Assembly (NCBI RefSeq): GCF_019263745.1
Contig: NZ_CP077107.1
Coordinates: 2,294,001-2,358,000, forward strand
Direction of reading: 5' to 3'
Origin: Methanospirillum hungatei
Lineage (GTDB): Archaea > Halobacteriota > Methanomicrobia > Methanomicrobiales > Methanospirillaceae
DNA: 64,000 nucleotides
Every line of letters starts with the position of its first letter. Position 1 is the first letter of the stretch. Below the pieces are notes generated by a model. The model was not told where the DNA came from and did not search any database. It saw nothing but the letters and a program-made list of their open reading frames with translations. Position numbers and translations under genes: made by a program. Positions 5,921 to 47,015 of this stretch are shown piece after piece.

Positions 5921-6233
5921 TTGGGGACTAGCCCGGGTGGATCGGCGTCACTTGTGACCTGAAATCGTCGGAATGCAGGGGGCGAAGTTTGAGGAAGGTC
6001 GGAACATACTGCCTGTATCTGTCGTGTTTCTGACGTAGAAACCCTGTCCTGTGAGGTCGGTGGCCAGGCATCACACCTTCGGAGGAGGGGACGACCTGTT
6101 GTCGCGGGGATCGGTTCAGGCCCGGAAGGGAGCAGACTTACCGTGAACATTCGGCGCCCATAGGGTTGCGGGGTGGAGAAGGAAACCCTTGGAAAGGGCG
6201 GTAATGACCGGTCGACCGATAACGTGTCCCCAA
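5921..6233 (+). ncRNA. ffs: Signal recognition particle 7S RNA
   Basis: The 313-base RNA is closed by TTGGGGAC at the 5' end pairing with GTCCCCAA at the 3' end. The Alu part CTAGCCCGGGTGG ... GTCACTTGTGACC lies at the 5' side as in archaeal 7S RNA. The S-domain helix 8 hallmark is present around 6113-6140: CAGG, a GGAA tetraloop at 6124-6127 and AGCAG on the return strand, which bind SRP54. The 3' end is only 13 bases before the malate dehydrogenase start. Confidence 0.95.
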
Positions 6234-43323: not shown

Positions 43324-44166
43324 TTACTCTGGCTTGCTGATGAGGGTCTTCTTTGCAACCCGGGTACCGTCATTCTTGTGTGGTTTCCGGATCACTGCAT
43401 CAGTTGCCTTTTCCATCTCACGTGCTTCATCACAGAGGAGCGTTGCCTGGCGCATCATCTCATGTGCGGATGCAACAATCGGAGTATAATTTTCAAACCC
43501 TTTGGTCATGAAACAACCCTTAACATTGACTCCGGCAACTGCCTGTGCAATTTCATATGCTGCGCGTGCTTTTGCATATGCGTAGGGGTTGCTGAATTCT
43601 CCTTCAACGGCCTTGTCTGAAGACATGACAATCTTCGGGAGAGCAAGGTCTTTGCCCTTCTTTCCAGCTTTTACCTGGTCGATTACTTCATCGAGTGCAA
43701 CCTGGAGTTTGCGGAAAGCGCCGGTAATGGAGAGCACTTTGATAAGGTTACCGTTGTAGTCTGCCATTTCGATGGGGTCAAGGAATTCACGGCGTGCACC
43801 AATCATGGAGTCACCCTTCATGATGATGTATCCAAATTCGCTTGCCTTGAGTGCTTCCCACTCTTCTTTCTTGGTGGTGATATCGTCAGTGATGACGACA
43901 CAGGGAATGCCTGCTGCTCCAAGTGCTTCACGTGCTCCCTTTGGTCCTGGAAGAACTCCATTTGGAGAGACAACGATACAGAAGTCCGGGCCCCATGCTT
44001 TCATGTTTGTGACAACACGGTCGATATCTTCTGGCTGAAGTTTGGTTCCGGATGTTGCCATGAATGTCTGCATATCTTCACGGTCTGCACGCTCATCCAG
44101 GAGAAGTTCTGCCATTACACCGCTGGCAATATTTCCGAGTTTTGCAATTCCTACTTTTACAACCAT
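43324..44166 (-). CDS. mtd: F420-dependent methylenetetrahydromethanopterin dehydrogenase
   Basis: This 280-residue enzyme reduces methenyl-H4MPT to methylene-H4MPT with F420, the step before mer. It starts [17 protein letters not shown] at ATG 44166 (the longer frame from 44187 is not used: the ribosome site GAGGTG is at 44171-44176, four bases upstream). Conserved segments [36 protein letters not shown] and [14 protein letters not shown] are present. Its promoter region is flanked by an inverted repeat described separately. Confidence 0.96.
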
Positions 44167-44193
44167 ACTACACCTCTGTGTGTTCAACGATAC

Positions 44194-44240: not shown

Positions 44241-44316
44241 AAACCTGAAATGGCGCGGATAGTAATTTTTTTTAAACAGATAGGATATTTTCCATTAACC
44301 TTTCTGTTTTATTGAC

Positions 44317-44333
44317 CAGGTTAACGAAACCTG
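44317..44333. promoter_or_regulatory. Palindrome upstream of the tfx-like gene
   Basis: CAGGTT-AACGA-AACCTG is a perfect six-base-arm palindrome of 17 bases, placed directly before a TATA-like TTAATTTATATG (about 44336-44346) of the tfx-like gene. A related TTAACC at 44296-44301 lies upstream. It could be the site of Tfx autoregulation or of control of the divergent mtd. Confidence 0.45.
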
Positions 44334-44362
44334 TTTTAATTTATATGTTCATAGGTGAGTGT

Positions 44363-44767
44363 ATGAAAGAAGGGTTACTCACTGATAGACAAAAGGAGGT
44401 TCTCAGGTATCGGAAAGCAGGGCTTACCCAGCAGCAGATTGCGGATATAATTCGAACATCTAAGGCAAATATCTGTACAATAGAAAAATCTGCCATGGAA
44501 AATATCAAACGAGCGCGTGAGACTCTGGATTTTTTTTATAGTCTTGATGCTCGTCATCTTTGCACAATTGATAAGGGATCAGACCTTTTTGAAGCAGCAA
44601 AGAAGATTTTTGACGAAGCAGAAAAAGCAGGCATTAAAGTCAGATATGATAGTATTCAATTAATGAACCGGATTCGTGAAGAAATACCTGAAAAAAACAA
44701 ATCTCGGCTGGTTCGGGAAAAAATTGAAGTATATCTCAAGGATGATGGCGACCTCTATTTTGAGTAA
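44363..44767 (+). CDS. tfx: Tfx-family transcriptional regulator
   Basis: A protein of about 134 residues starting MKEGLLTDRQKEVLRYRKAG (ATG 44363; a longer frame from 44312 runs through the palindrome). The helix-turn-helix is LTQQQIADIIRTSKANICTIEKSAMENI, and the C-terminal acidic part VRYDSIQLMN ... EIYL-like matches the Tfx family, first known as a binder of the fmdECB (molybdenum formylmethanofuran dehydrogenase) promoter. It is divergent from mtd, a gene of the same pathway, so mtd is a plausible target. The TATA box is so close that the mRNA would be nearly leaderless. Confidence 0.85.
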   Translation: MKEGLLTDRQKEVLRYRKAGLTQQQIADIIRTSKANICTIEKSAMENIKRARETLDFFYSLDARHLCTIDKGSDLFEAAKKIFDEAEKAGIKVRYDSIQLMNRIREEIPEKNKSRLVREKIEVYLKDDGDLYFE

Positions 44768-44779
44768 ACCGAAGCCAAA

Positions 44780-44788
44780 TATTTATAC
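44780..44788 (+). promoter_or_regulatory. TATA box of the RNA leader ahead of rpl3
   Basis: TATTTATAC lies just past the tfx stop, 25 bases before AGGG at 44807-44810, which would be the transcript start. It is the only good TATA box between tfx and rpl3. Confidence 0.5.
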
Positions 44789-44807
44789 CTTATTTTGATG
44801 AATATTA

Positions 44808-45246
44808 GGGAAGCCTCGATAGTAAGGATTTCATCTCCTCACTATCTAATTGAACCTAATCTGACTTTTTTCGGTCAAGACGCGGTCATAAATTGCTTTA
44901 ATTGCAATGGGCTGAAAGAGTGGGATGTGATGTCGGCAAGGGTGGACGATGCGGCCCGAGTCCTGGTAACAGGATAAGCCGAAAGATCACGCATCTTACG
45001 AGAGACCGGTAGCCGCAAGATAAAGGCAAGATCTGTCTACACGCGAGAGTGTTCATTCTAGCAGGATTCCCTGCATATCCGAAAAGGGACTCCGTGTTGT
45101 AGGGAGAGATCTGGTCATGTCTTCTGGCAAGTAGCAGTTATGGCGAAAGCGCATATACAGCTCATGTCCCGTGTCTCTTTCCTGCATCGAAGCACTACCG
45201 GAAATCGGGGTGTTCCCAGATACAGTAAAGAAGGACTGATTGATAC
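44808..45246 (+). ncRNA. Long structured RNA or leader before the ribosomal operon (unassigned)
   Basis: From a good TATA box to the rpl3 start lie about 440 bases with no credible protein but many perfect short stems: GATAGT/ACTATC (44818/44841), ATTGC/GCAAT (44892/44904), GATGCG/CGCATC (44948/44990) enclosing GGC/GCC and TCCTG-GTAA-CAGGA (44961-44974, GNRA loop), ACAC/GTGT (45039/45049), GCAGG/CCTGC (45061/45070), CTCC/GGAG (45090/45103). The order AGGGTGG, a CTGGTAACAG hairpin, then GCCGCAAGATAAAG recalls the specificity part of RNase P RNA, but the essential GAGGAAAGTCC and ACAGAAA were not found. The part after 45110 has weaker structure. It may be a separate RNA or a regulatory leader. 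Confidence 0.45.
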
Positions 45247-46260
45247 ATGCCAACTATTCACAGACCTCGCATGGGTTCCCTGGCATATAGCCCAAGGAAG
45301 AGAGCGAAAAGCCCTGTTCCAAAATATCATGCGTGGCCCGCGTACCAGGGAGAACCTGCACTCCAGGGCTTTGCAGGATACAAAGTGGGAATGACCCATA
45401 TCATCATGGTTGATGATCATGCCCACAGTCCGAATGAAGGAAAGGATATCATGGTACCGGTTACGGTCATTGAAGTGCCAGATATGCGGGTTGCCGCTAT
45501 CAGGGTTTACCGACATGATACCTACGGAAACCATGTCCTGACAGAGATCTGGGCTGACAACTTTGACAAAGAACTTGGCCGGAGATTGAACCTTCCAAAG
45601 AACTATATGCGTGACGAGGCTGAAAAGAAGATTCGCGAAGCACTTGATGCAGATAAAATCGTCGATATCTTCGCTCTTACATACACACGTCCCTCTGTTC
45701 TTACCGGTGTTCCAAAGAAAGTTCCTGACCTCATGGAAACCCGTATTGATGGTGGTTCAATGACAGAACGGTTTGAATATGGTCTTACCATGCTGGGGAA
45801 GGATTTCGATATCCAGTCTCTCTTCAAGGTAGGTCAATATACAGACATTACTGCCATCACGAAAGGTAAGGGGACTCAGGGTCCGGTAAAACGGTGGGGT
45901 GTCCACCTTCGGAAGAGAAAACACTCCCGTGGAGGAAAAGAACGTCATGTCGGAACTCTCGGACCATGGACTCCTCACCATGTCAGATGGCAGGTTCCTA
46001 TGATGGGTCAGATGGGATACCATCAGAGAACTGAGTTTAACAAACGCCTTCTCAAAATCGGAGAAGATGGTGCAGAAATTACACCGGAAGGCGGCTTTAT
46101 CAATTATGGAGAGGTACGGGCACGTTACGTCCTCATTAAAGGTTCAGTTCCAGGGCCTTCAAAGCGTCTTGTTCGTATCAGACACTCTATGCGCCAGGGA
46201 GAACACAAGATTCGTGAACCCACAATCGGGTTTGTGAGCCTGGAGAGCAAGCAGGGGTGA
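45247..46260 (+). CDS. rpl3: Ribosomal protein uL3
   Basis: The 337-residue large-subunit protein starts [20 protein letters not shown], with the central [15 protein letters not shown]-like loop ([21 protein letters not shown]) and peptidyl-transferase-facing [16 protein letters not shown]. It is the first gene of the S10-spc-like operon, five bases before uL4. No methyltransferase gene precedes it; the structured RNA above lies in its place. Confidence 0.97.
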
Positions 46261-46265
46261 AGTAA

Positions 46266-47015
46266 ATGAAAGCACAGGTATTGACACTTACTGGAACTGT
46301 TGCCCACGAGATAGAACTTCCTCCGGTCTTCAGCTCAGAATATCGCCCTGATCTTATCAAGAAAGCGGTTATCGCTCAGCAAAGCCGGCGATATCAGCCA
46401 CATGGAGCATATGTATACGCAGGAATTACTGCATCAGCCGTTGGTTGGGGTAGTGGTCGTGGTGTTTCACATGTTCCACGTCTGAAAAACAGTTCTCGCG
46501 CAGCTAAAGTTCCACAGGCAAAAGGCGGGCGTGAAGCACACCCACCAAAAGTAGAGAAAATACTGGTCAGGGATATCAACCAGAAAGAGAAACGCAAAGC
46601 ACTTCGCTCAGCAATTGCTGCGACCCTCTCTTCTGAACTTGTCCGATCACGTGGCCATGTGTTTACCGGTTCACTTCCATTTGTTCTTTCAGGAGAATTT
46701 GAGTCTCTGAAGAAGACAAAAGAGGTCATTGCTGCACTCCGTGCAATCGGAGTATATGGTGATGTAGAGCGGGCAGAACGTTCACGGAAGATTCGTGCTG
46801 GTCGTGGAAAACTTCGTGGACGCCGGTATAAACAGCGAAAGAGTATTCTTATCGTAACTGGAAATGAGCGGCTCCGTGCTGCGAGAAACCTTGCCGGTGT
46901 AGATGTGTGTCTTGTTGACAATCTGAACGTCGAACTTCTGGCACCAGGAACTCAGGCAGCTCGTCTTACGCTCTGGACCGAAGATGCTGTCCGTAAACTC
47001 GGAGGCGAGCAGTAA
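46266..47015 (+). CDS. rpl4: Ribosomal protein uL4
   Basis: A 249-residue tunnel-lining protein with the long basic loop ([20 protein letters not shown]) and [19 protein letters not shown]. Its stop overlaps the start of uL23 (TAATG), as usual in this operon. Confidence 0.97.

Follow-up and report, generated by a model that had tools for sequence, protein, structure and literature searches.

Few archaeal leaders have been described, and little is known of how archaea keep ribosomal proteins in balance with rRNA. The closest described system is the L4-Archaeoglobi leader (RF03135), a motif reported before rplC, rplD, rplW and rplB in Archaeoglobi only and rated borderline, as is its covariation there, with L4 as the ligand being a guess from the equivalent bacterial operon that its authors called uncertain (Eckert and Weinberg 2020, PMC7247131). 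In E. coli, L4 autoregulates the S10 operon via a long structured leader, at both transcription and translation (PMC10931766). Other archaeal ribosomal leaders, those of L1 and of S15/eL15, for which autogenous control is likewise presumed or shown, belong to other operons and have other folds. In a transcript-start study of Haloferax volcanii, leaders measured 6–250 nt, and structured leaders were inferred to be atypical of haloarchaea (PMC4983044).

The locus analysed here lies in a 64 kb window (the whole stretch of DNA under analysis) from a Methanospirillum genome of 3.39 Mb, and occupies 44808..45246 of the + strand, from the presumed first transcribed base up to the last base ahead of the rpl3 ATG. 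In our judgement this stretch is likely to be transcribed as a structured 5′ leader to the rpl3 operon, with a core homologous to RF03135, which would exert autogenous control, probably by L4 and mainly of translation. The leader represents an already predicted kind of ribosomal leader in a diverged, enlarged form, and not a new class of molecule. That it might regulate the largest ribosomal operon had been suggested by the first-pass annotation, and this suggestion is supported; its presence before rpl3 in 115 of 115 regions, its covariation and the RF03135 matches of its relatives all speak for such a leader. Like the E. coli S10-operon leader, it is a long and structured 5′-UTR before the equivalent operon, which also encodes L4; no homology of sequence or structure between the two is claimed.

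Genomic setting and identity of the leader

The leader is flanked by a tfx-type regulator gene (44363-44764) and by rpl3, the first gene of the operon (45247..46260, +; PF00297, E 8.6e-90), with mtd (43324-44187) further upstream and divergent to tfx. Downstream, the gene order is rpl3, rpl4, rpl23, rpl2, rps19, rpl22 and rps3, where rpl4 (46266..47015, +; PF00573, E 5.3e-39), the second gene, most likely encodes the putative ligand. Besides tfx, mtd and rpl3, no gene was detected around 44808-45246; the absence of a credible protein claimed earlier holds, as the conserved blocks are split by frame-breaking indels. The methyltransferase gene that had been noted as missing before rpl3 (PF02598) is in fact absent from the whole genome and not merely from the rpl3 neighbourhood. 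This putative RNA methyltransferase is present in Haloferax and Sulfolobus. The order tfx-leader-rpl3 is kept across the order Methanomicrobiales: in nearly every genome inspected, tfx comes before the rpl3 leader. An archaeal signal recognition particle RNA gene was also located, at 5921-6233 (181 bits).

Searched by itself, the window copy yielded no match to RF03135 at E 10 (44300-45400) and none genome-wide at E 1, and its Rfam search returned only chance matches (E 3-10). The identity emerged only via its relatives, without which the window copy would stay unassigned: at the same locus, 9 of 13 Methanomicrobiales loci scored above the RF03135 gathering score of 34.5 bits (best, 58.8 bits), and loci of other families of the phylum reached 75.9 bits. 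The window leader is therefore of a known kind. Furthermore, a covariance model (R2) that was built without Methanospirillaceae sequences, avoiding circularity, had as its sole match in the window 44874-45012 on the + strand (45.5 bits, E 2.1e-10, the E-values of this model being rough). Because the relatives match RF03135 and R2 matches the window copy, the latter is homologous to the RF03135 element and diverged beyond its model. The earlier proposal of a new RNA had been tied to covariation in relatives and to the lack of a clear Rfam hit; the covariation proved strong and the window copy indeed has no hit, while the relatives do hit RF03135.

The two elements share their position just before rplC, rplD, rplW and rplB, which RF03135 requires, as well as a three-way junction formed by a CUGA/UCAG-type closing helix, a GGGY...GCCC arm and a second hairpin, all three parts being recognizable in the window copy in the R2 alignment. 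They differ in the closing helix, which in the window copy is GUGA/UCAC with a two-base bulge; in the inner helix of the GGGY...GCCC arm, present in RF03135 and lost in the window copy; and in size, as the RF03135 model spans 85 nt, whereas the leader of ~440 nt has two extra 5′ hairpins, a hairpin P1 and a 3′ domain.

By DNA search, the stretch recurs between tfx and rpl3 within Methanospirillum, in 11 genomes including that of the window, and two other genera gave short matches ahead of rpl3. A profile search of 115 upstream regions of rpl3, sampled across six families of the order, recovered the core in every one, always before rpl3. Two-sided changes were seen at 26 of 37 pairs in an alignment of 46 sequences (A1) and at 27 of 37 in one of 47 sequences without Methanospirillaceae (A3), so that the covariation sought in related genomes is strong. 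The covariation score was 0.259, versus 0.159 +/- 0.008 for shuffles and 0.09–0.14 when the partners were slid.

Fold of the leader

The + strand folds better than its dinucleotide shuffles (z -3.55; 0 of 100 shuffles as good), and the fold of the − strand is weaker (z -2.29). The strong structure noticed at first is thus real; this statistic is modest by itself, and the comparative evidence is decisive.

From the 5′ end, the leader starts with hairpin P0 (44817..44846, +; GATAGTAAGGA/CTCCTCACTATC), 6 of whose 11 pairs show compensatory changes within Methanospirillum, and a second hairpin, P0b (44851..44888, +), with 14 pairs, 6 of them compensatory within the genus. The R2 match sets the extent of the conserved core at 44874..45012 (+), which corresponds by homology to the L4-Archaeoglobi leader region and its flanks. 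Within it, hairpin P1 (44892..44908, +) has two-sided changes across the order at all 7 pairs, reading GTTGTGA/TCACAAC in most relatives versus ATTGC/GCAAT in the window copy, and is followed by a GGGCTGA linker (44909..44915, +) that is conserved nearly without change. Helix P2 (44922..44996, +) closes the three-way junction by pairing GGATGTGAT (44923-44931) with ATCACGCATCT (44986-44996); it is paired in 93–95% of cells, with CTGA/TCAG of the relatives becoming GTGA/TCAC in the window copy, or in full GGAU-CUGA/UCAG-G-AUCU in most genera and GGAU-GUGA/UCAC-GC-AUCU in Methanospirillum. Inside P2, helix P3 (44933..44982, +) joins TCGGC (44933-44937) to GCCGA (44978-44982), as supported by the R2 alignment and alifold. 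The P4 arm (44940..44957, +) keeps its two central GC pairs in all sequences; its inner helix, found in RF03135 and in other genera, is lost from the window copy, where GGGTGGACGATGCGGCCC leaves at most 2 pairs, as it does in all Methanospirillum copies. Hairpin P6 (44960..44975, +; GTCCTG-GTAA-CAGGAT), with a GNRA loop, is supported by compensatory changes.

A long stem GATGCG/CGCATC around this GNRA-loop hairpin had been proposed in the first-pass annotation. Both strands exist (44948-44953 and 44990-44995), as does the intervening hairpin with its GUAA loop, but the long stem itself is not supported: comparative evidence pairs the CGCATC strand with the upstream GGATGTGAT of P2, and the stem, which uses the 3′ strand of P2, is a competitor confined to Methanospirillum and without comparative support.

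The 3′ domain, made of long irregular arms, is enclosed by the long-range helix P7 (45000..45177, +), in which GAGAGACCGG (45000-45009) pairs with CCGTGTCTC (45169-45177) in an alifold of 7 Methanospirillum sequences, the closing strands reading GAGAGACCGG/CCGUGUCUC. P7 shows little covariation because its sequence is nearly invariant within Methanospirillum. The domain includes a long irregular arm (45030..45111, +), whose helices, outer and inner, show compensatory changes at 4 pairs in the genus, and a hairpin (45134..45161, +) with a GCGAAAGC loop, which is drawn from the sequence and folds consistently in the genus.

Elsewhere in the order, a complementarity between CCGAGA and UCUCGG that would enclose the core recurs at similar places in many genera (at about -396 and -63 relative to rpl3 in Methanoregula-like leaders); another group of genera has GAUGUCGA/UCGAUAUC instead. 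It likely forms a long-range helix; within individual genomes it does not exceed shuffled sequences, and it is absent from Methanospirillum.

Promoter, ribosome-binding site and proposed control

The good TATA box of the earlier description was confirmed, as the putative promoter element of the leader and the rpl3 operon (44781..44789, +; TATA-like ATTTATACC), since its spacing to the 5′ element of the leader is kept among relatives. A TATA-like box lies 20–32 nt before the GA(A)(G)CC element in 99 of the 115 related upstream regions, with a spacing of exactly 28–29 nt in 92, whereas TTTATA or TATATA occurs within the last 300 nt before rpl3 in only 7. Given this spacing and the scarcity of late TATA boxes, the transcript very probably starts at GGGAAGCC (44808), ~26–28 nt past the TATA box, and runs on into rpl3, with no second promoter predicted. 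Scans of 44700-45300 for sigma-70 promoters and terminators found nothing; such scans mean little in archaea.

At the other end, the rpl3 ribosome-binding site AAGGACTGAT (45231..45240, +) takes the form AGGAYTGAT, AGGGTTGAT or AGGATTGAA in 96 of the 115 regions, unlike the GGAGG/GGTG-type sites at other genes of the operon, and may be under a second constraint such as pairing inside the leader. No pairing that hides the site is supported across genera. In one candidate the site (AGGAUUGAU) mimics GGAUCUGAU, the 5′ strand of P2, so that the two would compete for one partner; this candidate was rejected, as covariation does not maintain it in Methanospirillum.

In the mechanism that we propose, the leader folds in modules (the two 5′ hairpins, P1, the three-way-junction core and the 3′ domain, whose closing long-range helix ends ~70 nt before the rpl3 start), and a ribosomal protein made from the operon, most likely L4, would bind the core once it exceeds its sites on rRNA. 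The fold stabilized by the protein would lower translation initiation at the conserved ribosome-binding site of rpl3, and the rest of the operon would be lowered too via coupling. Co-transcription, binding of an operon protein and the effect on translation are what we infer from these features. Because both the inner P4 helix and the match to RF03135 are lost in the window copy, this copy may recognize its ligand in another way or more weakly.

As to the ligand, L4 is somewhat favoured, by analogy with the bacterial operon. The same leader could instead respond to L3, to another protein of the operon or to a non-ribosomal factor, for example L7Ae on a kink-turn, a reading that we regard as possible but hold tentatively. 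It would suit the fact that rpl3 is the nearest gene, as well as a report that L7Ae regulates archaeal leaders (PMC5539422). It would also suit the fact that no clear mimicry of the L4 site was seen: the longest exact matches between the leader and its own 23S rRNA are 9 bases (E 3.8; a comparison of sequence only), no more than expected by chance, in contrast to the L1 leader, which mimics its rRNA site, and the S15/eL15 leaders, which are thought to. Yet the ligand of a bacterial multi-gene operon is usually some protein other than the product of the nearest gene (PMC7247131), and L4 is established for the equivalent bacterial operon (PMC7247131, PMC10931766). A GGGUGACAGUCCC hairpin in 23S rRNA slightly resembles the P4 arm and is too short to count.

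The leader could control transcription, by premature termination or pausing, instead of translation. The action of E. coli L4 on both steps (PMC10931766) and the time that long leaders allow for termination or pausing would fit such control, but we consider it unlikely. The E. coli leader acts partly by NusA-aided termination, whereas no such site was seen in the window leader; and as no intrinsic terminator was found there, translational control is favoured over simple attenuation, though the lack of a terminator-like site in 44700-45300 is a weak argument, since scans capture archaeal termination signals poorly.

The first-pass annotation had also proposed a new stand-alone RNA, that is, a discrete and stable non-coding RNA that shares the operon promoter, is cut from the primary transcript and acts in trans. 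For a simple leader, it is indeed unusual to be ~440–600 nt long and to have many helices and a core that hardly varies. However, the element always lies before rpl3 on the same strand with one clear copy per genome, no terminator-like site separates it from rpl3, its conservation extends into the ribosome-binding site of rpl3, and its homologous family has been described solely as a leader, all of which make a separate RNA improbable.

That the locus holds an RNase P RNA, intact or degenerate, an idea stemming solely from a vague resemblance to the specificity domain remarked on earlier, is wrong beyond reasonable doubt: archaeal RNase P RNA (RF00373) is a large structured archaeal RNA too, but it has no covariance match in the window, 44808-45246 included, and its complete gene, the only match in the genome, lies elsewhere (genome positions 140338-140636, 203 bits). 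Chance structure in an ordinary intergenic region, in which short perfect stems are common over 440 nt, is refuted by the order-wide conservation, the covariation and the independent covariance match.

Spread across the phylum

The core of the leader was also sought across the phylum, inferred to be Halobacteriota. A model R1 found it in 156 of 296 genomes of the phylum, with exactly one match in each genome listed; R2 added 6 of 20 genomes that R1 had missed, one of which (G260) has a second, weak match. In all 60 genomes compared outside the order, the core lies 326–485 nt before rpl3 on the same strand. Among the controls, RF03135 rang in three, Caulobacter, Thermus and Haloferax, one of them above the cut-off; Haloferax volcanii is the likeliest of the three to be that one, and what is said here of haloarchaea rests on this control and on score patterns. 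No core match was found in Methanosarcina sp. Ant1, at the Fermentimicrarchaeum locus or at the Aenigmatarchaeota locus, and one family of the phylum has at best a weak match.

On balance, we lean slightly towards a single ancestral leader RNA of the L4 type that has controlled the main ribosomal operon in most lineages of the phylum, haloarchaea included, and that grew in Methanomicrobiales into a multi-domain regulator of 440–600 nt, with its periphery rewired and its presumed ligand arm cut down in Methanospirillum. If so, it would be among the largest and oldest archaeal ribosomal-leader RNAs. Our search of the literature found none on leaders in Methanomicrobiales, and a leader of about 400–600 nt before the largest ribosomal operon falls outside the range of 6–250 nt seen in Haloferax. 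The comparison turns a borderline prediction from a single lineage into a well-supported and widely testable element, present order-wide and, in the same position, in many other families, and Haloferax volcanii, which rings for RF03135, offers a genetically tractable host. What makes the element valuable is its strong covariation, how widely it is spread, how large it is and how far the Methanospirillum form has diverged.

In three genomes from other families of the phylum (G348, G444 and G240), rpl3 itself gave a match in two pieces with a gap at about residues 95-136, which suggests a lineage-specific change in L3.
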